A stretch of 64,000 bases of DNA, taken from NCBI GenBank assembly GCA_019695185.1, contig JAIBAN010000033.1, positions 1 through 64,000 on the forward strand, given 5' to 3'. Origin of the DNA: Blastocatellia bacterium (GTDB lineage: Bacteria > Acidobacteriota > Blastocatellia > Chloracidobacteriales > Chloracidobacteriaceae). Under the pieces are notes generated by a model that did not search any database, was not told where the DNA came from, and was given only the letters and a program-made list of their open reading frames with translations. This document shows, piece after piece, positions 4,287 through 53,473 of this stretch; within the stretch, counting starts at the first letter, position 1; each line of letters begins with the position of its first letter. The position numbers and the translations under genes are program-made.

Positions 4287-5258
4287 GTGGATTTGGTCGA
4301 AGTCACCATCACCCATCTTTCCGGACGGCGCGCCGGGGAAAGTGTGTCCTGTCGCACCTGGCCTGCCTCAATTGGCCGGGCACCGTCAAACACGGTCCAA
4401 CTGGGAACCCATGACACCAGGGCATCGGCCCGCCATGCCGAATTGCAGTACGACGGCAAAGACCTCTACATCCAGGATTCCAACAGTACCAATGGCACCT
4501 ATGTGCGCGGGCGACGGGTGACCCGCGAGAAACTCTTCAGCGGTGACGTGGTTGAATTTGGGGTGGGTGGCCCGCAGTTGCGGTTTGATTTTATTGTGCG
4601 GGTCAGTCAGCCGCCGCCGGTTCAACCAAAGGCAGTTGCGGCTCCGGTGGTGGCCGCACCCCAGGTCCCTTCAGCTCCGGCCCCAGCCCCGGCCCCGGCG
4701 GCGGTTCTTCCGGAACCCAATCCGGTGGCCCTGCCTTCTGCCCACGCCGGGACCCCCATTCTGGCCAAGTATCCGGCTGCCCCGGTGTCGGCGGCAGCGC
4801 CACTGGAAGATTTCGTCGGAAATGCACCTTCGGAAACCTCACATCTGGGGACACGTGAATTCCCGCTGCAACAACGCAATCGGTTTGTACTGCTCGTCAT
4901 CGGGCTGCTGCTGGTACTGACCGGAATTGGTTTGGCTGTTGCCCAAATGCTGGTGTGGGTCCTGCCGGTAATTTTTATCGGCTTGTTTCTGATGTTCACC
5001 GGCTGGAGCTTTTCCAGGGTCAATATCACAATTACCGCTCATGGAATCGAATATCAGGGAGTCTGGCGGCAAATCTCGATTCCCTGGAGTGATGTCACGT
5101 CGTTGCAGGCCGAAAAAAGCAAAACACGCGTGCTGACACATTTGGTCTACACGGTGAAAAGCCCGAAACACACCATTACGTTTTCCGCCAATGGCTTTGC
5201 CGGAGGTCTGGAACTGGCTCAGTTGCTGGCCCGCCGGGCCGGGCGAAAATGGGAATAA
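4287..5258 (+). CDS. FHA-domain membrane protein
   Basis: 323 residues. Residues about 10-105 form an FHA phosphothreonine-binding domain with the diagnostic set GR (IGRAPSN), SARH and NSTNGTYV. A Pro/Ala-rich linker follows (about 115-150), then two adjacent hydrophobic segments (about 195-245), and a C-terminal region (ITITAHGIEYQG to the end) that resembles a small PH-like domain. The FHA part is therefore probably cytoplasmic and anchored to the inner membrane, reading out Ser/Thr kinase signalling. GTG 4287 starts 5 bases after the xseB stop, so the two are likely co-transcribed. The specific partner is unknown. Confidence 0.75.
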   Translation: MDLVEVTITHLSGRRAGESVSCRTWPASIGRAPSNTVQLGTHDTRASARHAELQYDGKDLYIQDSNSTNGTYVRGRRVTREKLFSGDVVEFGVGGPQLRFDFIVRVSQPPPVQPKAVAAPVVAAPQVPSAPAPAPAPAAVLPEPNPVALPSAHAGTPILAKYPAAPVSAAAPLEDFVGNAPSETSHLGTREFPLQQRNRFVLLVIGLLLVLTGIGLAVAQMLVWVLPVIFIGLFLMFTGWSFSRVNITITAHGIEYQGVWRQISIPWSDVTSLQAEKSKTRVLTHLVYTVKSPKHTITFSANGFAGGLELAQLLARRAGRKWE

Positions 5259-5400
5259 GAACATTTGGCGATTTTCCATCCGCGATTGTCAGTTCCACGA
5301 TTTCGCTCAGGCGGATGGATATTTCCTCGCACATCCTTGAATTCATAAGTTTCAAGATGGACATGACACTGTAAAAAATGATAATTCCGCTTCTTGAAAG

Positions 5401-5544
5401 GACTGAGGACTGAGGACTGAGGACTGAGGGCCAAAATCAGGACTGATGATTAAGGGTCGTTTTCTGTTTCTCAGCAGGATTTTAATCCACTGAGTTCTCA
5501 TCTCTGGTTAAATTGCTCAGTCCTCAGTCCTCAGTCCTCAGTCC
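5401..5544. repeat. Paired inverted GACTGAG heptamer arrays
   Basis: Four GACTGAG units at 5401-5428 and their reverse complement (CTCAGTC, four units) at 5516-5544, separated by about 87 bases of non-repetitive sequence. The right array ends 18 bases before the ispA ATG. The rest of the roughly 300-base gap (5259-5400) holds no gene that I can see. Confidence 0.9.
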
Positions 5545-5562
5545 ATATCACTCACTATCTTT

Positions 5563-6474
5563 ATGTTTACCCCTGTTATGACGTTTTCACTGAAACAATA
5601 TTTCGCCACCCGTTCAGAAGAAATCAACGCCTGTTTGGACCGCCTGCTGCCAACGGTTGGAACCCCTCCGTCTCTTTTGCATGAAGCCATGCGCTACAGC
5701 CTGTTTGCCGGAGGCAAGCGTCTGCGCCCGATTTTGGTGCTGGCTGCCGGAGAAGCCCTGGAAGGGAATCGGGAGTACCTGCTGCCCGTCGGGTGTGCAT
5801 TTGAAATGCTGCATACCTATTCGCTCATCCATGACGATTTGCCTGCCATGGACAACGACGATTTACGGCGCGGCATGCCCACCTGCCATAGAAAATTTGG
5901 TGATGCCGTGGCGATTCTGGCCGGTGATGCGCTGTTGACCCGCGCGTTTCAGGTTCTGGCTGAACTTGAGGTTCCGCCCGTTTTGCTCGAACGAAAAGTG
6001 CAGGTCATCGTGGAACTGGCCCAGGGCGGCGGCACGGTTGAAGGGATGATTGGCGGCCAGATGGCCGACATCGCCGCCGAAGGCAAGGCCGTTGATGCGG
6101 AAACGCTGGCCTATATTCACCGGTCGAAAACCGGGGCCTTGATTCGGGCTGCGGTGGTGTCTGGCGGGTTGATGGCCGGAGCCAGCGAAGCGGAAATTGC
6201 CACCTTGCGCCGTTATGCCGAGTGTATCGGATTGGCGTTTCAGATTGCCGATGACATTTTGGATGTAACTTCCACGGCTGAGGCGTTGGGAAAAACACCC
6301 GGCAAGGATGTTGCCGCCGGGAAAGCCACTTATCCGGCGCTTTTCGGGTTGGAGGCTTCACGTGTCAAAGCCCAGGCATTGGTTGATGAAGCAGTTGCCC
6401 TGGTGGAACCGCTCGGACGCCAGAAGGAAATATTGGTTGCCCTGGCCCGTTTTATCGTCGAACGACCTTCATAA
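5563..6474 (+). CDS. ispA: Polyprenyl (farnesyl/geranylgeranyl) diphosphate synthase
   Basis: 303 residues of the trans-isoprenyl diphosphate synthase family, which condenses isopentenyl diphosphate onto allylic diphosphates. Visible landmarks are GGKRLRP, the first aspartate-rich motif HDDLPAMDND at about 90-99, GDALLTRAF, the SKTGALI segment, and the second aspartate-rich motif FQIADDILD ending at 234, followed by GKTPGKD. The residues before the first motif (MLHTYSLI) fit a short-chain, FPP-type enzyme but do not prove product length. ATG 5563 is used; ATG 5578 is an alternative. Neither has a clear Shine-Dalgarno, because the upstream region is a heptamer array. Confidence 0.92.
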   Translation: MFTPVMTFSLKQYFATRSEEINACLDRLLPTVGTPPSLLHEAMRYSLFAGGKRLRPILVLAAGEALEGNREYLLPVGCAFEMLHTYSLIHDDLPAMDNDDLRRGMPTCHRKFGDAVAILAGDALLTRAFQVLAELEVPPVLLERKVQVIVELAQGGGTVEGMIGGQMADIAAEGKAVDAETLAYIHRSKTGALIRAAVVSGGLMAGASEAEIATLRRYAECIGLAFQIADDILDVTSTAEALGKTPGKDVAAGKATYPALFGLEASRVKAQALVDEAVALVEPLGRQKEILVALARFIVERPS

Positions 6475-6509
6475 CCCGAACCAGGGTGACGCAGGCGTTT
6501 TTTGGTAAA

Positions 6510-6549
6510 TGGCACATGGTTGGAAGCGGCTCTTGCTTACCATGTGCCA
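6510..6549. repeat. Inverted repeat TGGCACATGGT / ACCATGTGCCA
   Basis: Perfect 11-base arms at 6510-6520 and 6539-6549 around an 18-base loop, in the leader of the TPR-thioredoxin gene. Similar TGTGCCA / ACCATGTGCCA words recur at about 60278-60298. It could be an RNA hairpin or a dispersed palindromic element. Confidence 0.6.
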
Positions 6550-6587
6550 GACACCTTTCACTGTACTCTTTTAGAAAGGGAGCCCGA

Positions 6588-8753
6588 ATGAAACGATCAC
6601 GACTCACCCTGATTCTGTGGGGAGTGGCGTTGGTCGGTGCCTTTGGTGGGAACATCCCCATCTCTGCACAGACTCCGAAAAACCCACCGCCTCGGATTGT
6701 CATCAAAAATCCTCTTCCAACAGAAACCAAACTGCTCATCCAACAGGTGGATGAACTGATTAACCAAGGAAAACTGGATGAAGCTGTTGCCGTGGCCCGC
6801 AAGGCGCGCGAGGTATCGTCCAACGCCCTGCCGGCCCATTTGATCTATGTCCGGGCTCGCATGGTCCAAAGTTCTGACCCGGTTGCACTGGTCGAAGAAT
6901 ATCGTGCCAAAATGATGGCCGAGCCGGAAAACCCACTGTATCCATTGGTATTGGTGCAGGGAGCTTTTCTGGCGATTGTAGTTAAGGAAGAAGAACGGTC
7001 CCGTCTGCTGCAAAAAGCGGCTGACCTGGCTCCGGACTGGTCCTGGGGGCAATTTGCAGCCGGACAGTTGCTGGAAGCCAAAGGTGATAAACCGGCAGCC
7101 CTGGCGGCTTATCGCAAGGCACTTGAACTGGAGCCGGAGAATTCCGCACTGGTCGAGCGTCTTTCCTGGTTTCTGCTGGCCGGAAAACAGTTTGACCAGG
7201 TCATCAGCCTGAATCAAAAACTGGTGCAAGGGGATCCGGCGCTGTATTCGGCCTACACCCAGATGTGGCGGGCACAGTTGGGAAAAGCCGCCAATGCACC
7301 AGAAACAGTCCAACAGGTTGAAAAAGAATTGGAGGCGCTGATTGCCCGTGCGGACCGGTCTCCTGCATTTTTACAATTTGCCGCCAATTCTTATCGAAAC
7401 CTGCTCAAACGCGGGGATAAGGCCAAACCTTTTGATGAGGAACTGAAAAGCAAATATCCCGATTGGGGGAAATACAGCGGGTTTGCCTATACGGCAGCCC
7501 CCAATCTCACCGGGCTGATGCGTCGCTATATTCTGGCCGGGCAGCGAAACGTGGCCTTTCGGCAGATTGCCGAAGCCGCCAAAATACCGGACCTTGCGCC
7601 CCGGATAGCTGCTCTTGAGGCATTGGACAAAGAGCCGCTGGATGACGAATTACGGCTGTACTGGGCGGAACAACTGGCAAACGCCTATGCCCAGGCCAAG
7701 GACATTGCCAAACTGGAACTGCTGGCACCAAAGATTGTGAAACTGGACCCGGAAGATATCGGGGTCTATGAACTGGTGGCCCGGACGATGCTGGAGCACA
7801 AGAGCGATGCCCGGCGGGTGCTCAAATATGCTGAAATGCTGACGGCGGCAACCACGTCTTTCAGCCCGGCCAAACGACCGAAAAGTTACGACGAAGCGTC
7901 CTGGAACGAGGATTTCGGCGCAGCCGAACAGCGGGAGGCCTTTGACCAGCGCCGGGGAAATTACCTCTATGTGCTAGGTCAGGTCCAGGCGGAACTGGGC
8001 AACCTTCCAAAGGCTGAAACCACCCTGCGGGAAGCGATTGCCGCCAATTCCTCGGTCGCTGCCAGATTCCAACTGGGAGAGACGCTGGAAAAACTTGGTA
8101 AACCAACGGAAGCTGCGCAAGCTTACGCCGATGTCATAGCCGAAACTGGCGGGGTTCCTGCCAATACCTCTCTGGCAAATCTGGCCGGAAACCTCAATCT
8201 GGGCGGGAAAGCTGCGCTGGCTTTGCAGGGGCTTGAAAAGAAAAACCCGAAAATCAATGGCCAGTCGTTAATGACGGCGGCCCTGGCCGCCAAAAAGGAA
8301 CGCATCCGGGTTGGCCTGCGCAAAAAATTCATCACCGAAGAACCCAAAGACTTCGAGGTGGCCAATCTGGCCGGGACCAAAGTCAAACTTTCCTCGCTCC
8401 GGGGAAAAGTGGTCCTCATGAATTTTTGGGCCAGTTGGTGAGGGCCCTGTCGTGCGGAGTTTCCGCACCTCGTCGCCCTCTATGATAAGTTCAAATCCCA
8501 AAACGTCGAGTTTCTGTCCATCAACGTTGAAGAAGACCAGGACGCCGCCCGTGCTTTTGTAGAAAAACAGAAGCCCGGATTTCCCGTGTTTTTGGCCCAA
8601 ACGGTAGGCCAACAATATGAAGTCCGAGGCATTCCCCACACGGTCTTTTTTGGCCGGGACGGCAAACTGCGCTTCCGCGAAATCGGGTTTGACCCCCGGG
8701 ACGGGGAAGAACAGTTCACCATCATCCTGGAGGAACTGCTCAAGGATAAATAA
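6588..8753 (+). CDS. TPR-thioredoxin fold protein, probable selenoprotein (in-frame TGA at 8439-8441)
   Basis: ATG 6588 follows a good AAAGGGAG and starts a Sec-type signal peptide (MKRSRLTLILWGVALV...). About 560 residues of TPR-like helical repeats follow, then a TlpA/AhpC-like thioredoxin domain beginning near DFEVANLAGTKVKLSSLR. At 8439 the frame reads N-F-W-A-S-W-TGA-G-P-C-R-A-E-F-P-H. The TGA replaces the first cysteine of the expected WCGPC motif, at residue 618. Reading through gives a complete thioredoxin fold, including the cis-Pro loop GIPHTVFFG, to TAA 8751-8753 (721 residues). A bacterial-type SECIS hairpin lies just after the TGA. Selenocysteine insertion is the best reading; a nonsense mutation or base-call error is the alternative. 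It is likely a periplasmic redox protein. Confidence 0.85.
8440..8480 (+). promoter_or_regulatory. SECIS-like hairpin for selenocysteine insertion
   Basis: Apical stem GTGCGGA (8452-8458) / TCCGCAC (8462-8468) with loop GTT, or a six-pair stem with loop AGTTT. A lower stem GAGGGC (8440-8445) / GCCCTC (8475-8480) is joined by a symmetric six-base internal loop. The loop starts 17 bases after the TGA and carries G at its first position. This fits the bacterial SECIS rules as I know them (apical loop 16-37 nt from the UGA, G in the first two loop positions). SelB binding is inferred. Confidence 0.7.
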
Positions 8754-8784
8754 GGTATTTCCCATTTGGACAAAGGCACAAAAC

Positions 8785-8820
8785 GAAAGCCCGCCAGTTT
8801 CCCGGCGGGCTTTCATTTTT
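8785..8820. terminator. Rho-independent terminator between convergent genes
   Basis: GAAAGCCCGCC (8785-8795) pairs perfectly with GGCGGGCTTTC (8804-8814) around an eight-base loop, followed by ATTTTT on the plus strand. The minus strand has GTTTTG after the stem. It lies between the selenoprotein stop (8753) and the minus-strand lolA-like stop (8860) and probably ends both transcripts. Confidence 0.85.
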
Positions 8821-8859
8821 GACTTTATCCAATCACAGACGGGCAATTACAGATACTGC

Positions 8860-9564
8860 TTAGGTGCTGACCTTTTTCGCGTTGCCGTAGTTGACCTTGA
8901 ACTGATTGTCGGAAATCCCCGGATTGACCCGCAACCGCGTCAATCTGACTTCCGTGTAGTCCCGGTTCTTTTCAAAAAACACCTGTTTGGCCGGAAGCCA
9001 GGTTTTATGGTCAATCCAGACTTCAATCCGGGCAAATTTGATTTCGGCGGTTTTGGGCGTGAGGGTCAGGTGGGTTGCTGCCTGGCCATCCACTGTTTCA
9101 TTGCCGACCAGGGAGATATTGAACCGTTCACGCAACTGAGCGGCTGCATTCAAAACCGTCAGCAGGTCAAAGCCGCCGCTTTTTTTGGCAATCTGCGAAA
9201 GGCCGGTTTCAAAAACCGTTCCCTGTTCGATTTCCCAGAGGAGAGCCTTGTTTCCATCCACGGAAAGCACTTTCTTTTGCGGGCGGGAATAGTCAATCCG
9301 GACTTTGCGTTGGGTTCCGGGTTTGTAAAGCAGGGTGCCTGCCTGTTCAGGGTCTTTAATATTGAGCTGGCCGTTGGTTCGTTGGTGGACAATTTCAGCT
9401 TGCAGGCTGGTCAGGCTGCGGCTGGTGGTTTCAATTTTGGTGAGGACCGAATTGAGTTGTTCTTCTCCGCCGCTGGCCTGGGCCACGGTACAATTGGTGA
9501 GCATGGCTGGGGCCACCAGCCCTAGCATCATAAAAACAAGAATCAAAACCGAATAACGTTTCAT
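8860..9564 (-). CDS. LolA-like lipoprotein carrier / outer membrane lipoprotein-sorting protein (copy 1)
   Basis: 234 residues with an N-terminal signal peptide (MKRYSVLILVFMMLGL...). The mature part is LolA-like: an N-terminal helix (LNSVLTKIETTSRSLTSLQA), then beta strands with GTLLYKPGTQRKVRIDY and LLWEIEQGTVFET, and a C-terminal strand pair ending FKVNYGNAKKVST. LolA-family proteins carry lipoproteins or lipids through the periplasm in a half-barrel cavity. A second copy lies immediately upstream on the same strand (9648-10316). GAGGAATT precedes the ATG. It appears to be the last gene of a six-gene minus-strand cluster with ABC transporter genes. Confidence 0.75.
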   Translation of the reverse strand: MKRYSVLILVFMMLGLVAPAMLTNCTVAQASGGEEQLNSVLTKIETTSRSLTSLQAEIVHQRTNGQLNIKDPEQAGTLLYKPGTQRKVRIDYSRPQKKVLSVDGNKALLWEIEQGTVFETGLSQIAKKSGGFDLLTVLNAAAQLRERFNISLVGNETVDGQAATHLTLTPKTAEIKFARIEVWIDHKTWLPAKQVFFEKNRDYTEVRLTRLRVNPGISDNQFKVNYGNAKKVST

Positions 9565-9647
9565 AATTCCTCAAAAGACTTTGAATTTCTGCTTAATGTG
9601 GGTTCAAGTGACAGCGCGCTTTGAGTCCTGAAGACAAAATTATTGAT

Positions 9648-10316
9648 TCAGGTGTTTATCTTTTTGGCATTGCCGTAGTTGACCTTGAATCGATTGTCTG
9701 AAATATCTGAATTAACCTTCAAATTGCTGATCTTGACTTCGGTATAATCCTGGTTCTTTTCGTAAAAAACCTGTTTAACGGGGAGCCACGTCTGATGTTC
9801 AATCCAAACTTCAATGCGGACCATTTTGATTTCAGCATCTCTGGGTGTCAGAGTTAGGTGAGTAACTGGTTGATTGTCAACAACATCGTTTCCGGCAAAC
9901 GCGATTTTGAACTGTTCCCGAAGTCGGACCGCAGCCTGCAAAACCATCAAAAAGTCGAAAACTCTCCGCCTCTTGGCAGTTTGTGAGGTTTCATAGACCA
10001 AACCTTGCTCAACTTCCCACAGGAGAGCGTCGTCCCCATCCAATGCCAGTACCTTTTTCTGAGGCCGGGAGTAGTCAATTCGGATTTTGGGCTGTACGCT
10101 TGGTTTATAGAGCAATGTTCCAACCTGTTCCAGGTCTTTGATGTTGAGGTTTCCGTTGGTACGGCGGTGGGTAATGGTAGCTTGTAGGCTTGTCAGGTTA
10201 CGGTTGGAAGTTTCAATTTTCTTAAGAATCGAGTTGAGTTTCCCCTCGCCGCAATTTGACAAGGGAGCCGACCCTGACATCAATAACAAAAGAATCAAAA
10301 TCAAACTATGTTTCAT
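9648..10316 (-). CDS. LolA-like lipoprotein carrier (copy 2)
   Basis: 222 residues when started at ATG 10316 (MKHSLILILLLLMSG...), a compact signal peptide; an upstream in-frame start at 10337 would lengthen it by seven residues. It is a close paralogue of the 8860-9564 product, sharing LTSLQA, RTNGxLNIKD, GTLLYKP, RIDYSRPQKKVL, ALLWE, THLTLTP and the FKVNYGNAKK ending. A recent tandem duplication is likely. The hydrophobic-cavity carrier role is inferred from the fold family; whether each copy handles a different cargo cannot be told. Confidence 0.73.
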   Translation of the reverse strand: MKHSLILILLLLMSGSAPLSNCGEGKLNSILKKIETSNRNLTSLQATITHRRTNGNLNIKDLEQVGTLLYKPSVQPKIRIDYSRPQKKVLALDGDDALLWEVEQGLVYETSQTAKRRRVFDFLMVLQAAVRLREQFKIAFAGNDVVDNQPVTHLTLTPRDAEIKMVRIEVWIEHQTWLPVKQVFYEKNQDYTEVKISNLKVNSDISDNRFKVNYGNAKKINT

Positions 10317-10344
10317 AGTTCCGAAAAAAACTTCCAATGGTCAC

Positions 10345-10722
10345 TTAATCAAACCAAACCCGATACCCCACAATGGTACCACTTCGGCTGTCGGTGAGCA
10401 CTTCAAAGTGCCGCACGGTCACAGGCCGACCGAGGTTGCGCAGTCCCGCGCTTTCCAGGGATTTCTGCAACGTGTCTGCCGGAGGCACATTCTTGATGTC
10501 ATCGGCAGTGATGAGAACCGGCTTGCTGTTCAGGTTGGGGACTGCCCCGGTGGATGAAGCCGCAGGGGATTTCGTTGCGCGTGGTTTTCGTTCATCAAAA
10601 AACGAGGTTGGGATGAAAAAGATAAAGGCCAGAATGGCAACACACATCACGTCGTACTGCCAGGTTCCCCGTTCATAATGCCAGAACCAAATGGCGCGAA
10701 AAAATCCGATGATATGGCCCAT
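10345..10722 (-). CDS. Small membrane-anchored protein of unknown function
   Basis: 125 residues. A short aromatic-rich N-terminus (FFRAIWFWHYERGTWQYD) is followed by one membrane segment (about 24-42, VMCVAILAFIFFIPTSFF), a basic Ser/Pro-rich linker and a soluble C-terminal region that includes VLITADDIKNVPPADTLQ and ends GTIVGYRVWFD. A strong GGAAGGG precedes the ATG. It lies between the ABC ATPase gene and the LolA-like genes, all on the minus strand, so a role at the inner membrane in the same process is plausible. I do not recognise the family. Confidence 0.65.
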   Translation of the reverse strand: MGHIIGFFRAIWFWHYERGTWQYDVMCVAILAFIFFIPTSFFDERKPRATKSPAASSTGAVPNLNSKPVLITADDIKNVPPADTLQKSLESAGLRNLGRPVTVRHFEVLTDSRSGTIVGYRVWFD

Positions 10723-10793
10723 GATGTTTCCCTTCCTGCGAATGGTGTCAAAGCGTCAATCTGAAAATGGCAGATGACCTGCCCCCTTGCTTT

Positions 10794-11537
10794 TCATTTT
10801 CTGGCCGAGACAATCTCCTCAGTGGTTTCAAAATTGTGGCGCAACACCCGGCTGTCAAGAACCTTGCCGTCTTTCATCCGAATCAACCGTTGGCCCACCT
10901 CGGCAGCCTCGGCGTTGTGGGTAATCATGATGACGGTCTGACCCAGTTCCGTATTCAACCGGGTCAGCATATCGAGCACAATTTGCGAATTTTCACTGTC
11001 CAGGTTACCGGTCGGTTCGTCCGCCAGCAGAATTGCCGGGTGATTGATAATGGCGCGGGCCAAAGCCACCCGTTGCTGTTCGCCGCCGGACAGTTCAATC
11101 GGTTTGTGGTGCAGCCGGTCTTCAAGCTTGAGCAGTTTCAAGATATGACGGCGGCGCTTTTCCTCTTCGGCATGGTCGCGGACGGAACCGCTGTGGCGAA
11201 TATATTCAGCCAGTTTGATGTTGCCTTCAGCCGTCAGGGTCGGAAACAGATTGAAACGCTGAAACACGATACCGATTTTGCGCCGCCGGATGTCCGTCCG
11301 CTGGGCATCAGTGACGGAAGCCAGGTCTTCGCCATCAATCACCACGTTGCCGCTGGTTGGCTTGAGCAGGCCGCCGAGAATGTGCAGCAGAGTTGATTTT
11401 CCCGAACCCGACTGACCCATAATCGAGACAAACTCGCCTTCCTGAATTTCGAGATTGACTCCGCGCAGGGCAGGAACATCAATCTTTCCGACCCGGTAGG
11501 TCATGGCGACATTGAGAGCTTGGACGATGGTCTTCAT
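10794..11537 (-). CDS. ABC transporter ATPase (LolD/MacB class)
   Basis: 247 residues with Walker [11 protein letters not shown]-loop [11 protein letters not shown], signature [14 protein letters not shown], Walker [13 protein letters not shown] and the H-loop ITHN. The DEPTGNLD box and size are typical of the LolD/MacB/FtsE group, which drives mechanotransmission rather than substrate passage. The partner permease is the next gene upstream on the same strand (11624-12712). The ATG is preceded by AAAACTC-type repeats and no obvious Shine-Dalgarno. Together with the LolA-like genes downstream, this suggests lipoprotein release from the inner membrane. Confidence 0.88.
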
Positions 11538-11547
11538 AAAAAATTTT

Positions 11548-11625
11548 GAGTTTTGAGTTGTTCGTTTTGAGTTTTGAAAGCTGGTGTGAAGTTGAGTTCA
11601 TGCAAAACTCAAAACTCAAAACTTT
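11548..11625. repeat. Paired GAGTTTT / AAAACTC arrays
   Basis: GAGTTTT-type units (with small variations) at 11548-11578 and the inverted AAAACTC array at about 11600-11623, separated by about 22 bases. The pair fills the gap between the ABC ATPase and permease genes; its right end touches the permease stop codon region. Confidence 0.85.
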
Positions 11626-12712
11626 ATTCATAGCTGAGTGCTTTGACGGCGTCCTGGTTGGCGGCTCGTACTGCCGGATAGAGTGCACCCAGCAGGCCGC
11701 TTCCAATACCAATCAGGGCGGCATAGAGCATCCACCGGGGTTCCAGTTCAACCTGGAGCGAGGTAAACCGCATGATGCCGATTTTAAGCATAAATGCGGC
11801 GGCATACCCAAGCAAAACTCCGGAAATGCAAATCAAAAGTGCTTCCTGTTCGATGACCCGGACAATAAATCCCTTGGATGCCCCCATGGATTTCAGGATT
11901 CCGATTTCTCTGGTGCGTTCCATGATGGTGGTGTACATGGCCAGCAAAATAACCAGCAGGCTGACAATGACAGCCAGTCCGATGACCACTTTGAGAAAGG
12001 TATTGAAAGCCGGGATGCCTTTTTCGTAAAGCTGTTTCAGGTCTTCAAGCGGCATCAGCTTGTTGTCGGGCAGTGCCTGATTGATACGAGCGGCAACGGT
12101 CGCGGTGGATTCACCTTTGGCGCACTTGAGATAAATCATGGTACAGCGGTCAGGTGAGGAAAGGATTTGTTGCAGGCTCGAAAGCTTGATTTTGATACGG
12201 GAACCGCTGGGCGGGGAAAAAATACCGGCAATCCGGAACTTGCGGCTGAAAATGTCCACCGTGCTGCCAACCGTAACTTTTTTCTGCCGGGCATAAACTT
12301 CATCCACAATGACATCCAGGTCTTCGGTCAGAGGCTGGCCCTGCTGGATGTGAATGCCCGACATCTGGGAGTAGGTCGGAAAATCAATTCCTTCCAGAAT
12401 TTCAAAGCCGATTCCGGTCTTGGTTTCTTTCAGATACTGCCCCACGGGAGACACCAGTCCCACTCCCGGAACCTCCTGCAACTTTGGCACATACTGTGTC
12501 GGAAGGGTCAGGGAAGTCGTGGTCAGGCTGAAATCACGGTAAAACATGAGGTCCGCGCCGACGCTTGACTCACGGGTCTTGCGGTCATTTTGCATACCGT
12601 TGACAAGACCGGCAAACATCATGACCAGGACCACCCCCAAAGCCACCCCGATGATACTGACGGCGGTCCGGGTGGGGCGTTGTTTGACGTTAGCGACGAC
12701 GAGACTGTCCAT
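11624..12712 (-). CDS. ABC transporter permease, FtsX/LolC-E/MacB type
   Basis: 362 residues with the four-segment layout of the family: one membrane helix near residues 18-40 (AVSIIGVALGVVLVMMFAGL), a large extracytoplasmic domain, then three helices (about 240-350) with the FtsX-like signature MERTREIGILKSMGAS and a C-terminal LGALYPAVRAANQDAVKAL. It pairs with the ATPase at 10794-11537. As the only permease in the cluster it would act as a homodimer, like LolF of other bacteria, if the Lol interpretation holds. DevC/MacB-like export of another substrate is the alternative. Confidence 0.82.
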   Translation of the reverse strand: MDSLVVANVKQRPTRTAVSIIGVALGVVLVMMFAGLVNGMQNDRKTRESSVGADLMFYRDFSLTTTSLTLPTQYVPKLQEVPGVGLVSPVGQYLKETKTGIGFEILEGIDFPTYSQMSGIHIQQGQPLTEDLDVIVDEVYARQKKVTVGSTVDIFSRKFRIAGIFSPPSGSRIKIKLSSLQQILSSPDRCTMIYLKCAKGESTATVAARINQALPDNKLMPLEDLKQLYEKGIPAFNTFLKVVIGLAVIVSLLVILLAMYTTIMERTREIGILKSMGASKGFIVRVIEQEALLICISGVLLGYAAAFMLKIGIMRFTSLQVELEPRWMLYAALIGIGSGLLGALYPAVRAANQDAVKALSYE

Positions 12713-12722
12713 ACTTTATATT

Positions 12723-12848
12723 GGGTTCAGGGTTCAGGGTGTTGCAGTCTTGAGAGTCTTGGGAGTCTTGAGAGTCTTGGGAGTCTTGGGAGTCTTGGGA
12801 GTCAAAAAAGATTCTCAATTCTCAATTCTCAATTCTCAATTCTCAATT
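12723..12848. repeat. Three adjacent tandem-repeat arrays (GGTTCAG, CTTGGGAGT, AATTCTC)
   Basis: GGTTCAG-type units at 12723-12740, six CTTGGGAGT nonamers (two with AGAG variants) at 12746-12803, and five AATTCTC units at 12814-12848. Three unrelated unit families sit side by side between the permease and lipoprotein genes, with hardly any other sequence. Confidence 0.9.
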
Positions 12849-23724: not shown

Positions 23725-24150
23725 ATGGACGATTCCAAAATCACAATCCGGCGGGAAACCCTGCCGGTTCGGTGCGAAATCTGCCATCAGGTAGACCTTT
23801 TCAACCCGGAAACGGGAGTTTGTGACCGGTGTCAGTGGGTGCGGGTGACCCATCCGGTGGTTCATTCTGAATTTCCGTCGGTGAGGACTTCCTCTTCAAC
23901 TTTTTATTCCGGATTGGTCGTTGTTCGACGGCTCTTTCTGTTTGCCGGATGCACCCTGCTGGTTTCCGTTTGTGCTTTTGGTCTGAATGTCTATTTCCAA
24001 AATTTTGAGGTTCTGGTTTTTTTAGGAGCCTTTTCGATGTTTGTAACTCTGATTGTGGTAACGGTCGCTGTATTCACAACGATTATTTTGATTGCAGGGG
24101 CCTTTTTCGATTGGTTTGATGATTGGACGAATCGCCAACGAAACCTGTAG
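23725..24150 (+). CDS. Zinc-ribbon membrane protein, RCEICHQ family (paralogue 1)
   Basis: 141 residues. The N-terminal 40 residues hold the family signature: TIRRETLPVRCEICHQVDLF, NPETG, CDRC, giving two CxxC knuckles about 15 residues apart, a likely zinc ribbon. Two or three hydrophobic segments follow (about 68-90 and 95-130), and the tail is charged. It is the first of three tandem paralogues on this strand; four more lie on the opposite strand at 45250-47078. GGGAGAAG precedes the ATG. I do not recognise a named family. A cytoplasmic ribbon tethered to the inner membrane is likely. Confidence 0.75.
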   Translation: MDDSKITIRRETLPVRCEICHQVDLFNPETGVCDRCQWVRVTHPVVHSEFPSVRTSSSTFYSGLVVVRRLFLFAGCTLLVSVCAFGLNVYFQNFEVLVFLGAFSMFVTLIVVTVAVFTTIILIAGAFFDWFDDWTNRQRNL

Positions 24151-24167
24151 GTCTTGAGGGTTGCGCC

Positions 24168-24626
24168 ATGTCTCGAAAATCAAGTCTGATTCTCCGCAAA
24201 GAAACCCTGCCGGTCCGGTGCGAAATCTGCCATCAGACGGACCTTTTCAAACCCGAAACGGGAATTTGTGAGCGTTGCCAGGGAGTTGCGTCAGCCAGCC
24301 CAGTCACGAATGAATCACCAGCGGATGTTCCCCGTGCGGCTGCTCTTCGCTGGAGAATTCGAGTTTTTCGACCACTGGCACTGGGAGCATTGCTGGTGGG
24401 CGGCGTGTTGGCTCTGGTTGGTGACCACTATTGTCGGTTTCCGGACCGCAGTCATGGTGGAGAGCTTCCCGGATTGGCTGATGAAATATCAGGTTTGATG
24501 TTTTGTATTGGGGCTGTGCTGATTTTTCTTTTGGCTTCGATTTGGGGAGGGCTATGGGCTTCTGCCAGTTGGCACTGGGCGCAATATAAAAAACAATTTC
24601 TCCAAGGGAATCGGGATCAACAATGA
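24168..24626 (+). CDS. Zinc-ribbon membrane protein, RCEICHQ family (paralogue 2)
   Basis: 152 residues from ATG 24168, which follows TTGAGGG. The signature is nearly identical to the first copy: LRKETLPVRCEICHQTDLF, KPETG, CERC. The rest diverges: a Pro/Ser linker, one membrane helix at about 66-82 (LALGALLVGGVLALVG), a short loop with GGELPGLADEIS, and a second helix at about 108-130. It starts 17 bases after paralogue 1 ends, and its stop overlaps the next start (ATGA), so the three genes form one operon. The function is unknown. Confidence 0.73.
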   Translation: MSRKSSLILRKETLPVRCEICHQTDLFKPETGICERCQGVASASPVTNESPADVPRAAALRWRIRVFRPLALGALLVGGVLALVGDHYCRFPDRSHGGELPGLADEISGLMFCIGAVLIFLLASIWGGLWASASWHWAQYKKQFLQGNRDQQ

Positions 24627-25036
24627 CAGAACAAAAACTGGTTGTCCGCAAAGAAAACCTGCCGGCTCGGTGTGAAATCTGCCATCAGGCGGACAGGTTT
24701 GACCGGCAGTCCGGGATTTGTACACGGTGTCAGACCGTGGCGGTGGAATTACCGCAAGAGGCCCTGGAAAAGCCGGTTTGGGTTCCTCTTCAACCTCATC
24801 CTGGTGTCCGCCGAGCTTTTATTTGGTTGTTTGTTTCGTCTCTGATTTGTGTGGCAGGTTGTACTATTGGAGAGTTTTTGATGGTGAGTCCTATTTGGAA
24901 GGACATGGGGGTTTTGTTATATCTGGCTGGGGGCTTGGCCGGTGTGTTTTCCTTGGCTTGTGCTCTGGGTTTGGGGCTTTATTGGTTATTACAGGGCCTC
25001 AAACTCGTTTGGAGAGAATTGATTGATACTCTGTAA
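24623..25036 (+). CDS. Zinc-ribbon membrane protein, RCEICHQ family (paralogue 3)
   Basis: 137 residues. The start overlaps the previous stop by four bases (ATGA). The ribbon reads VVRKENLPARCEICHQADRF, DRQSG, CTRC. Two strongly hydrophobic regions (about 65-90 and 95-122) follow a short linker. Only the ribbon and its spacing are conserved among paralogues; the membrane parts share hydrophobicity rather than sequence, which suggests that the ribbon is the functional constant. I see no catalytic motif. Confidence 0.73.
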   Translation: MTEQKLVVRKENLPARCEICHQADRFDRQSGICTRCQTVAVELPQEALEKPVWVPLQPHPGVRRAFIWLFVSSLICVAGCTIGEFLMVSPIWKDMGVLLYLAGGLAGVFSLACALGLGLYWLLQGLKLVWRELIDTL

Positions 25037-26193: not shown

Positions 26194-26200
26194 GGCAAAG

Positions 26201-26333
26201 TCTTGGGAGTCTTGGGAGTCTTGGGAGTCAAAACCCTGACAGGGTGACAGGGTGACAGGGTGACAGGGTGACGAAGTGCTGACAGATTCCTGACTCCCAA
26301 GACTCCCAAGACTCCCAAGACTCCCAAGACTAT
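26201..26333. repeat. Composite repeat: paired CTTGGGAGT arrays enclosing an ACAGGGTG array
   Basis: Three CTTGGGAGT units (26201-26229), about four ACAGGGTG octamers (26236-26272), and four inverted ACTCCCAAG units (26291-26333). The combination matches the composite at 21880-21973, with the octamer array in the opposite orientation. It lies between mltG and the upstream gene. Confidence 0.9.
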
Positions 26334-45249: not shown

Positions 45250-45726
45250 TCACGACGGTAAATGTTTTTCCCGGTTCAGATGAGCCAACCGGACCACTCC
45301 GCTGGAGGTGGCATTGGCCATCGTCATCATTCCAAAGAAGAGCGTGAAAATAAAGCCGCTGGCGGAGACAAAGCCAACCAGAGCCGCCAGACTCATCAGG
45401 AAGCCTCCAAGCGCCATCAGCCAGGGGTTTTCCGTCCAGACCAGCCGCAATCCAAGAATCCCCACCCCAGCGGAAAGAAGGGCGGTTGCGCCGGTTCCCA
45501 GAAAGAAGGCGGTGGTGGCTCCAATCAAACTGGTCGGAGAGGTTGCCAGCGGATGTTTGGAAACGCTCCGCCGCGTGTGTTCAGGTGTCAGGGAAACCAG
45601 GTTTTCCGGTAGCTCCGCACAACGCTGACAGATTCCCGTCTCTGCCTCAAACTGGTCCGCCTGATGGCAGATTTCGCACCGCACGGGCCGGCTCTGGTGG
45701 CGAATGACAAGCTTGCAGTCCGTCAT
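45250..45726 (-). CDS. Zinc-ribbon membrane protein, RCEICHQ family (paralogue 7)
   Basis: 158 residues. The ribbon is VIRHQSRPVRCEICHQADQF, EAETG, CQRC. Three hydrophobic stretches follow (about 60-80, 84-103, 110-140), and the tail carries basic residues. It is the most downstream member of the minus-strand array and is separated from the others by about 110 bases. It converges with the DUF3299 gene, whose stop is 4 bases away. Confidence 0.73.
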   Translation of the reverse strand: MTDCKLVIRHQSRPVRCEICHQADQFEAETGICQRCAELPENLVSLTPEHTRRSVSKHPLATSPTSLIGATTAFFLGTGATALLSAGVGILGLRLVWTENPWLMALGGFLMSLAALVGFVSASGFIFTLFFGMMTMANATSSGVVRLAHLNREKHLPS

Positions 45727-45837
45727 AAAAACCTCGTTTCAGTTGAAGCAAAAACGGTCAGGAAATAATCAGGAAAGGATAGAGGGATTGTGGTCCTGGG
45801 CGGGCTCTTTGGCAAGCGTGAAACAGTTGAAACACGG

Positions 45838-46224
45838 CTATTTATCCCGTGGTCTCGTCTCGAAATAGTTGGCTGCCACAAACAAGCACACCGTTCCCAA
45901 CACAAAAACCAAAAACCCAAAAAAAGGCAGACCCTCAACGGTATTGTTGGAGCATAACCCAGCAGCAATCAGGAAACAAAACCCAGCCAAAATCAAACAA
46001 CCACTCACGATAAAGCGCCAGCGGAGAGAGCCCTGTGGCTGAAGCGGAGTTGGTGGCAGCATCATTTCCGGCAACGTTGCCAACACGGGTTGGCACCGCT
46101 GGCAAAAGCCGGTTTCCCGATTGAACACATCCGATTGGTGGCAAATCTCGCAGCGGGTGGGGTTTTTTTCCTGCCGGAGCGTGATGGCAGAGGTGCGTTT
46201 GGGATTATTTCCCGCTGTTGTCAT
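45838..46224 (-). CDS. Zinc-ribbon membrane protein, RCEICHQ family (paralogue 6)
   Basis: 128 residues from ATG 46224, which overlaps the end of paralogue 5 by 20 bases; GTG/ATG choices further upstream would overlap more. Ribbon: TLRQEKNPTRCEICHQSDVF, NRETG, CQRC. Two membrane helices (about 68-90 and 98-120) and a short basic tail. The overlap implies translational coupling. Confidence 0.72.
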   Translation of the reverse strand: MTTAGNNPKRTSAITLRQEKNPTRCEICHQSDVFNRETGFCQRCQPVLATLPEMMLPPTPLQPQGSLRWRFIVSGCLILAGFCFLIAAGLCSNNTVEGLPFFGFLVFVLGTVCLFVAANYFETRPRDK

Positions 46225-46633
46225 GGCGGCTTGCCCAGGCATCTCCAATGCTTTTGCAGATTGCTACCAACATTAAAAAGGCAGAGGCAATGACTCCAAT
46301 GCCAAAGGCTGCCAGCCCCAGGAGCAAAGCCAGAATTCCAACATAAAACATGCCTTCAAACCTGGAAGCACTGCCAAATCCGCAACTGGCAAAGGAAATC
46401 AGGAAGCCAAGTCCGGAAGCCAGAAAAATCCGCCCAACCACACCCCAGGGAGTCAGTGAGAAAGTCGCCTGGGGAAAGTTCGGCACTGCGGCGGCAGTCC
46501 GTTGGTGCTCCTCAAAAACCGATTGACACCGCTGGCAGATGCCGGTTTCCGGGTTGAATCGGTCTGCCTGATGACAGATTTCACAGCGGGTGGGCAAAGT
46601 GATATTGCGGAGAATGATTTTAGGTTCTGACAT
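46205..46633 (-). CDS. Zinc-ribbon membrane protein, RCEICHQ family (paralogue 5)
   Basis: 142 residues. Ribbon: ILRNITLPTRCEICHQADRF, NPETG, CQRC; this is almost identical over 25 residues to paralogue 4, so the two arose by recent duplication. Two membrane regions (about 62-82, 88-125). Its start lies 4 bases after the paralogue 4 stop. Confidence 0.73.
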   Translation of the reverse strand: MSEPKIILRNITLPTRCEICHQADRFNPETGICQRCQSVFEEHQRTAAAVPNFPQATFSLTPWGVVGRIFLASGLGFLISFASCGFGSASRFEGMFYVGILALLLGLAAFGIGVIASAFLMLVAICKSIGDAWASRHDNSGK

Positions 46634-46637
46634 GGGT

Positions 46638-47078
46638 TTAGGGCTTGCGCTGATGTTTGGTCATTGGTTTGGTGTCGCGTTGAGATTCCGGAGGGGGCAA
46701 CGCTTGTGAAGTCTGTTCGATGACAGCCTGCCCCATTCCGGCTAAAAAACCAAAGAATCCGAAACCATAAGAAACGATGGTAACCCACTCCAAAAAATCC
46801 TCGCCGGGTTGACCTGAAAAACCTATGCCAGCAGTGCAAGAGCCAAATCCAATGAGCAGGCAAATACCTGCTGCCAGCATGAGTCGTGGCCCGGTAATCA
46901 CATGACTGGGAGGGATTGAAGTGCTCTGGATAGCGTCTTTTGATTGGGGAACAGCCGTGGAAATCTGCTGACATCTGGTGCATCTCCCGGTTTCCGGGTT
47001 GAATCGGTCTGCCTGATGACAGATTTCACAGCGGGTGGGCAAAGTGATATTGCGGAGAATGAGCTTTTGGTCAGGCAT
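46638..47078 (-). CDS. Zinc-ribbon membrane protein, RCEICHQ family (paralogue 4)
   Basis: 146 residues from ATG 47078, chosen for its strong GGAGAGG site and because the ribbon (MPDQKLILRNITLPTRCEIC) then begins at the same position as in the paralogues. NPETG and CTRC follow. Two hydrophobic segments (about 62-83, 95-120) and a polar, basic C-terminus (PMTKHQRKP). It is the first gene of the four-gene minus-strand array. Confidence 0.74.
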   Translation of the reverse strand: MPDQKLILRNITLPTRCEICHQADRFNPETGRCTRCQQISTAVPQSKDAIQSTSIPPSHVITGPRLMLAAGICLLIGFGSCTAGIGFSGQPGEDFLEWVTIVSYGFGFFGFLAGMGQAVIEQTSQALPPPESQRDTKPMTKHQRKP

Positions 47079-47199
47079 GAAAGCCTCTCCCGTCAGGTAC
47101 ATGCTTTTTTCGGTGACCGTACTGAATCCACGTGAGGCTGAGTGTGTCCAGTATAACGCGAGGTCAATCGGCAGGGATGCAAAATTTATGTGCCCACAG

Positions 47200-52899: not shown

Positions 52900-53259
52900 T
52901 CAGCGGTCAGCCGTCAGCTTTTGAATGAAAGTTGCTAACATCCGTTTCACTTCGACCACTTGGGCCGTAAGACATTGAAATTCCCCAGTTGCCAGAAACC
53001 GGAGGTCATGCGCCAGGAGCAAGTGGTATTCAAGTTCACTGGCTGAACCCATTGCGATTCTCAAAAAGCGTGCCAGTTCAGCATCCCCGCCTCGCCCACA
53101 ACCTTCTGCAATATTTGCCGGTACTGAAGCGGCGGCACGGCGAACTTGACTGATAAGCCCGTAGGTTTCGTCTTTAGGAAATTTGGTTGTTACTTGATAC
53201 ACAGCCAGAGTGAGCTCATGTGACTTCTTCCATACTTTCAACTCATGGAAATCTTTCAT
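52900..53259 (-). CDS. Four-helix-bundle protein (S23/IVP family)
   Basis: 119 residues from ATG 53259, preceded by AAGGTG. The family block MKDFHELKVWKKSHELTLAV, FPKDETYGLISQVRRAAASV and PANIAEGCGRGG is clear. Helices follow (ARFLRIAMGSASELEYHLL). Members were first seen as 23S rRNA intervening-sequence proteins and are common, poorly understood single genes in many bacteria. The last codons (KLTADR) are encoded by GAAAGCTGA-type repeat. Its 5' part is duplicated next door. Confidence 0.9.
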   Translation of the reverse strand: MKDFHELKVWKKSHELTLAVYQVTTKFPKDETYGLISQVRRAAASVPANIAEGCGRGGDAELARFLRIAMGSASELEYHLLLAHDLRFLATGEFQCLTAQVVEVKRMLATFIQKLTADR

Positions 53260-53461
53260 AATCACCTTTGGGTACAAGCTGAAAGCTGAAAGCTAGCGGC
53301 GGCACGGCGAACTTGACTGATAAGCCCGTAGGTTTCGTCTTTAGGAAATTTGGTTGTTACTTGATACACAGCCAGAGTGAGCTCATGTGACTTCTTCCAT
53401 ACTTTCAACTCATGGAAATCTTTCATAATCACCTTTGGGTACAAGCTGAAAGCTGAAAGCT
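53128..53461. repeat. 167-bp perfect tandem duplication
   Basis: The segment 53128-53294 is repeated immediately at 53295-53461. It covers the first half of the four-helix gene, its ribosome site and the (GAAAGCT)n array. The junction lies exactly at the GAAAGCT heptamers, which suggests slippage or unequal exchange between heptamer copies. I see no mismatch between copies. Confidence 0.9.
53295..53426 (-). pseudogene. Truncated duplicate of the four-helix-bundle gene 5' end
   Basis: Starting at ATG 53426 the frame repeats the first 44 residues of the four-helix protein (MKDFHELKVW to QVRRAAAS), then continues for a few repeat-derived residues (FQLSACTQR) to a stop at 53262. It keeps the AAGGTG ribosome site, so a short peptide could still be made. 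It results from the 167-bp tandem duplication. Confidence 0.85.
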
Positions 53462-53473
53462 ATAAGCTATAAG

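Follow-up and report, generated by a model that had tools for sequence, protein, structure and literature searches.

A conserved Cys4 module on dozens of membrane proteins in Chloracidobacterium and its relatives: a possible docking domain for a bacterial ubiquitin-like conjugation system

Why would a bacterium fuse one small and nearly invariant cysteine motif to so many different membrane proteins? The question is raised by three closely packed genes in a Blastocatellia bacterium, found within a stretch of 64,000 nucleotides (contig JAIBAN010000033.1, positions 1 to 64,000) referred to here as the window. The answer that we defend, with slightly better than even confidence, is that the motif forms a cytoplasmic, one-zinc treble-clef docking domain belonging to a bacterial ubiquitin-like protein (Ubl) conjugation system. 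To our knowledge, the bacterial ubiquitin-like systems described so far are compact operons, and their targeting step is poorly understood.

Seven genes of the window carry the module, in two arrays. The first array (23725-25036, forward strand) comprises 23725..24150, which encodes 141 residues with the module at about 23743-23841 followed by two hydrophobic helices; 24168..24626, with 152 residues counted from the ATG at 24168 (a TTG-start frame opens at 24123) and the module at about 24192-24287; and 24623..25036, with 137 residues and the module at about 24641-24739. The start of the third gene overlaps the stop of the second by 4 bases. The second array (45250-47081, reverse strand) is made up of 45250..45726 (158 residues, module at about 45613-45708), 45838..46224 (128 residues from the ATG at 46224, module at about 46084-46179), 46205..46633 (142 residues, module at about 46517-46612) and 46638..47078 (146 residues from its ATG, module at about 46962-47057). 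A preliminary description of this DNA had announced three genes at 23725-25036, seven copies in the window, and an N-terminal cysteine module that hardly varies while the membrane parts joined to it have diverged. The open reading frames were found exactly there, the seven copies were located as three plus four, and the alignment of the seven proteins agrees: M1, R9, P14, R16 to Q22, D24, F26, G31, C33, R35, C36 and one leucine are invariant, the proteins align poorly outside the module, and the hydrophobic helices come after it in each case. At the DNA level, the 15-base motif TGYGARATHTGYCAY has exactly seven exact matches in the window, every one of them inside these genes; when up to two mismatches are allowed the count rises to 12, where shuffled sequence would give 4.2. 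The flanks of the first array resemble D-Ala-D-Ala carboxypeptidase and MltG genes when their translations are read, which had suggested a role in peptidoglycan metabolism; this idea was abandoned, since the copies are spread across numerous contigs with no linkage between them.

The window also contains repeats. Short heptamer tandem arrays occur across it in inverted pairs, 60-150 bases apart (for example CAGGGTT then AACCCTG, or AGGACTG then CAGTCCT), at 5399/5516, 19028/19150, 31972/32080, 33219/33339, 41779/41840, 51456/51588, 59384/59535 and 61555/61689. Arrays of the 9-mer AGTCTTGGG lie at 12746, 21878, 26199 and 26292, the one at 26199 being followed by its inverted copy at 26292, and similar runs are found in other contigs of the genome. 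A perfect tandem duplication of two 167-base copies, 100% identical, occupies 53128-53462 and reflects either a recent duplication or an assembly effect.

How far does the constancy of the module extend? Its consensus, R-C-E-[IV]-C-H-Q-x-D-x-F-x6-C-x-R-C, is shared by all seven window proteins. In an alignment of 152 sequences from the whole order (Chloracidobacterium and relatives), the four cysteines and one histidine never vary; 151 of the sequences retain the D, 150 the R of CxRC, 149 the Q and 147 the preceding R. The gap between the cysteine pairs is equally rigid (CX2CX12CX2C in 152 of 153 sequences), and all 42 copies of this genome agree without exception in nine columns (R C C H Q D C R C). 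Since the residues other than zinc ligands (R, H, Q, D and R) are themselves 97-100% constant in the 152 sequences, the alignment suggests that the module presents one common binding face.

Those 42 good copies were recovered on some 20 contigs by a search of the whole genome (8.33 Mb), joined to partner parts that include two-helix, six-helix or many-helix segments, PuhB/PH-like domains, ankyrin repeats, pilin-like sequences and others. Six members are PuhB/bacterial-PH-like (NCBIfam NF040894, best E 7e-11) and five carry ankyrin repeats, while one has a weak type IV pilin match (E 0.0013) and another looks TonB C-terminal-domain-like by reading, without a profile match. Two proteins bear the module at their C-terminus, behind one helix, and in another copy (L053), whose frame is short, the module is not followed by a helix. 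The idea of a family of two-helix proteins therefore fits the window copies, which do have such a part, but not the genome, where a mobile module sits on many unrelated partners. An exact block of 76 bases common to genes 46205..46633 and 46638..47078 starts and ends inside the module, with unrelated DNA beyond, and the median identity of module DNA over all pairs in the genome is 60%. From these observations, the module appears to undergo duplication or conversion as one piece, independently of the membrane part, after which selection on the protein would preserve it.

The family had further been presented as one without a name that should occur beyond this genome, and both points stand. All 14 genomes of the order encode the module, in 2-46 copies each (42, 16, 46, 38, 17, 12, 4 and seven times 2; 189 in total), Chloracidobacterium having only two. 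Within a phylum sample of 297 genomes, in which the module searches scored part of each genome's candidates, all strong matches fell inside this order, and the next best had an E of 5.5e-6. This last match is a membrane protein from another family of the class (L122:1204-2163, genome G310); its related finger, CPVCHRSDKIDSLSNRCLRC, may be a distant outgroup copy of the module. When 84,980 species were scanned for the single pattern RCE[IV]CHQxD, 57 loci came up; all of them belong to records whose title reads Blastocatellia, Chloracidobacterium or Acidobacteria or whose scaffold name contains Acidobacteria. As far as such searches can tell, the module is essentially absent from other Acidobacteriota. 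Several module-encoding records of the JAAFHI01 series (L063, L065, L066, L068, L070, L075, L079 and others) are titled Actinomycetota bacterium and have scaffold names reading Acidobacteria; the organism name looks wrong. As for known families, neither Pfam nor NCBIfam gave a match above cut-off for the module. The closest was Pfam DZR_2 (PF18912), which matches weakly across the cysteine pairs (11.8-17.9 bits) but does not reach its cut-off of 27 and is matched over only about half of its profile. A sequence search of solved structures gave nothing significant (best E 0.34).

Which partner could such a conserved face bind? One kind of copy is present in every genome of the order: a short protein that has a single helix and ends in the module. 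It is one of the two copies of Chloracidobacterium; in the second (L140:5448-6167) the module is N-terminal and precedes some 200 residues of conserved multi-helix sequence without known family. The gene for the one-helix protein adjoins a Ubl gene in 14 of 14 genomes. An E1 gene is found at the Ubl locus in 13 of them, with E1 first, the module protein second and Ubl third every time, an arrangement that spans two families and seven genera; in the fourteenth (G001), the contig ends inside the module gene and the E1 side is not visible. In the present genome the locus is on contig C34, where the one-helix protein (L038:5484-5798) lies between an E1-like ThiF enzyme (L038:4055-5320; PF00899, E 2.9e-47) and the Ubl (L038:5892-6200; 81 residues, ending NTRGG), and the E2 and JAB genes are side by side on contig C82. 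In the second family (four genomes), E2 follows Ubl in 4/4 and JAB does as well in 2/4.

Ubl, E2 and JAB each occur once per genome in 14/14 genomes. The Ubl is above the Pfam cut-off for Rad60-SLD and below it for ubiquitin and YukD; its profile aligns with ubiquitin up to residue 76, 49 of its 81 positions are invariant, and in all 14 genomes it is a single beta-grasp domain whose C-terminal GG closes the sequence NTRGG, with 0-21 residues after it. No Ubl of comparable strength was found elsewhere in the phylum among 396 sampled genomes, part of whose candidates were scored, and module and Ubl have the same taxonomic range. The E2 stays below the cut-off of Pfam UQ_con; PDB profiles match it to UBE2W and other E2s (best E 3.2e-4), its motif HPHVWPDGK[IV]C has an invariant cysteine, and its AlphaFold model, of low confidence (pLDDT 60.6), is matched to E2s by Foldseek. 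The JAB protein is above the Pfam cut-off and reads ENE...HTHPGFGVFMSGTD in this genome. Taken together, these sequences point to a putative bacterial Ubl conjugation system, with E1, a Ubl ending in GG, an E2 with its catalytic cysteine and a JAB protease with an intact motif. A literature search found nothing linking Chloracidobacterium to a ubiquitin-like operon or to the module; an earlier description of the order's Ubl operon is possible. The window arrays, like most copies, are unlinked to this operon. An HMM built from the operon modules alone recovers 42 of the 42 copies of this genome (worst E 1.7e-11), which argues from sequence similarity that the window proteins carry the same conserved face as the operon module.

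Structure prediction refines this picture. In the AlphaFold model of the third window protein (24623..25036), the module has block-mean pLDDT values of 84-95 over residues 1-40, and the membrane part forms helices 60-87 and 90-136. In the module, C17 and C20 sit in a knuckle; a short hairpin comes next, and then a helix spanning 34-41, the start of which bears the second cysteine pair. A treble clef consists of a zinc knuckle, a beta-hairpin and a helix, two ligands coming from the knuckle and two from the start of the helix (PMC4999995). Because the modelled layout fits this definition, the module is predicted to be a treble clef, rather than the zinc ribbon that had first been proposed. Zinc binding is likewise a prediction. 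Structural neighbours of the window protein are mostly ribosomal uS14-type proteins, themselves treble clefs, at non-significant scores (Foldseek, VIA); no RING, NZF or B-box was among the matches listed, though kinship with these may exist all the same. A RING finger was considered and set aside, for it needs two zinc sites with eight ligands, and the module has four cysteines and one histidine invariant at constant spacing, with no second site. On which side of the membrane does it lie? There are 0.139 Lys+Arg per residue on the module side of the first helix and 0.074 on the other. The module side is the richer one in 88 proteins and the poorer in 18 (p 3e-12, for related and hence non-independent sequences), and proteins with a C-terminal module have the mirror-image pattern. 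Given this excess and its mirroring, the module is predicted to be cytoplasmic in both arrangements.

The proposed docking mechanism can now be stated. The operon module protein would bring the conjugation machinery together on the inner side of the membrane, the likeliest component to be bound being E2~Ubl or the Ubl. Members of the order with large genomes would have added the same module to dozens of membrane proteins of unrelated kinds, the seven of the window among them, and so have turned these into clients of the Ubl system or into E3-like adaptors. This builds on what is seen directly, namely the sequence, the copy number, the gene order, the charge asymmetry across the first helix and the presence of all the enzymes; we infer from it the physical docking and the place of the window proteins as adaptors, receptors or substrates. 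It also gives shape to the earlier suggestion that the ribbon binds a common partner while the membrane part varies: this fits all the findings, and a candidate partner, the Ubl operon, has been located outside the window, the binding being our reading of them. Several facts weigh against the docking domain. The co-occurrence of module and Ubl lies in one clade and so counts as one evolutionary event; Chloracidobacterium runs with two module proteins, which makes the large set dispensable for the system; the fold matches are non-significant; and the window arrays lie apart from the operon. A broader version, offered tentatively and with some doubt, is that these bacteria have an adaptor set on a eukaryotic scale, with a mononuclear treble clef in the place of RING on dozens of membrane proteins per cell, making Ubl conjugation a general inner-membrane regulator in the relatives of Chloracidobacterium. 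If the docking reading is right, it would show a bacterial parallel to the expansion of eukaryotic E3s, on a different zinc finger and on membrane proteins, and would give a function to a large protein set outside every current family model. In any case the module makes the putative adaptors or clients recognizable by sequence: there are 42 in this genome, 46 in a relative and 2 in Chloracidobacterium, which, with so few, is the simplest place to test the question.

Could the zinc site instead only help membrane proteins to fold or cluster, with no tie to Ubl and an incidental place in the operon? N-terminal Cys4 zinc sites with no ubiquitin link are known, such as those of Llmg_0524 and Llmg_0526 of Lactococcus (CX2CX10CX2C; PMC4628341), and most module copies are far from the operon. 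We nevertheless find such a general finger rather unlikely: the invariance reaches well past the zinc ligands, the placement between E1 and Ubl is kept across two families and seven genera, and homologous loci elsewhere have RING and GYF membrane proteins at that very place. The module might also be a degron-like recognition tag, the paralogues being dedicated clients of the Ubl system and not adaptors. One conserved tag on dozens of unrelated proteins is what a common enzyme would call for, and E2 and JAB are indeed single-copy; but the tagged protein with the highest conservation has its gene flanked by those for E1 and Ubl in every genome, as one would expect of a core component more than of a client, and the alignment of 152 order sequences contains no conserved lysine in the module, so that we judge this unlikely. 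Closer to the docking domain, and differing from it in the partner only, is an NZF-like ubiquitin-binding finger that would turn the membrane proteins into receptors sensing free or conjugated Ubl. The compact Cys4 unit has a length similar to NZF, and 49 invariant Ubl positions leave room for a conserved binding face. NZF/RanBP2 fingers, however, have the signature C-x2-4-C-x10-C-x2-C with a preceding tryptophan, whereas the module is a predicted treble clef, not an NZF ribbon, with x12 instead of x10 between its cysteine pairs and no conserved tryptophan; the NZF/RanBP2 assignment was rejected and the receptor role seems to us distinctly improbable. Finally, a c-type haem site at the CxxCH that opens the module, although this is invariant in 152/152 sequences, is scarcely credible, as the second, equally invariant CxRC completes a Cys4 zinc site and the Lys/Arg distribution predicts a cytoplasmic module, c-type haem not being attached in that compartment.

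The docking domain is best appreciated beside the systems already known. Llmg_0524 and Llmg_0526 of Lactococcus lactis are likewise small membrane proteins with an N-terminal Cys4 site for which zinc binding has been shown (PMC4628341), but they lack the conserved HQxD, have CX2CX10CX2C spacing, amount to two genes and have no reported link to Ubl. The Bil and Bub systems share E1, E2, Ubl and a JAB-type protease with the order; in the compact Bil operon, however, BilA has two Ubl domains, beta-grasps in tandem (PMC11354881), whereas the order's Ubl is a single 81-residue domain in 14/14 genomes and is accompanied by a membrane finger protein. The prokaryotic ubiquitin-like operons of types 6a-6e encode Ubl, E1, E2 and JAB together and include, in one type, a Zn-finger protein suggested to recognize targets (Iyer et al., 2006; PMC1779556). 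Type 6d, with an alpha-helical protein and an E2 without the usual histidine, and type 6e, with a poly-Ubl and an inactive E2, were both described without the present module (PMC1779556). The target recognition envisaged here is, by analogy, an idea of the same kind as that made by Iyer et al. (2006) for a different Zn-finger protein.

A telling parallel comes from two loci of another Acidobacteriota family. One (L240, about 5386-11892) reads Ubl, E1, JAB, FHA membrane protein, Prok-RING_1 membrane protein and E2, and in the other (L239, about 4624-11680) a GYF_2 membrane protein precedes E2. We take this locus to be of the type described by Burroughs, Iyer and Aravind in 2011. It resembles that of the order in bringing together a YukD-like Ubl, homologous E1, JAB and E2 enzymes and zinc-finger membrane proteins, and differs in that its finger is a RING (PF14446) and in its additional GYF and FHA proteins. 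Prok-RING_1 (PF14446) was undetected in 14 of the 14 genomes of the order, and the RING and GYF domains sit where the order has the CHQ module. RING fingers are two-zinc treble clefs, so the module may be a substitute for them; its descent from RING would be a conjecture, and its functional equivalence to a RING E3 is put forward as a hypothesis. The order is set apart by the CHQ module, at a position held in that family by RING and GYF, by a Ubl with RGG at its end, and by its dozens of additional module proteins.
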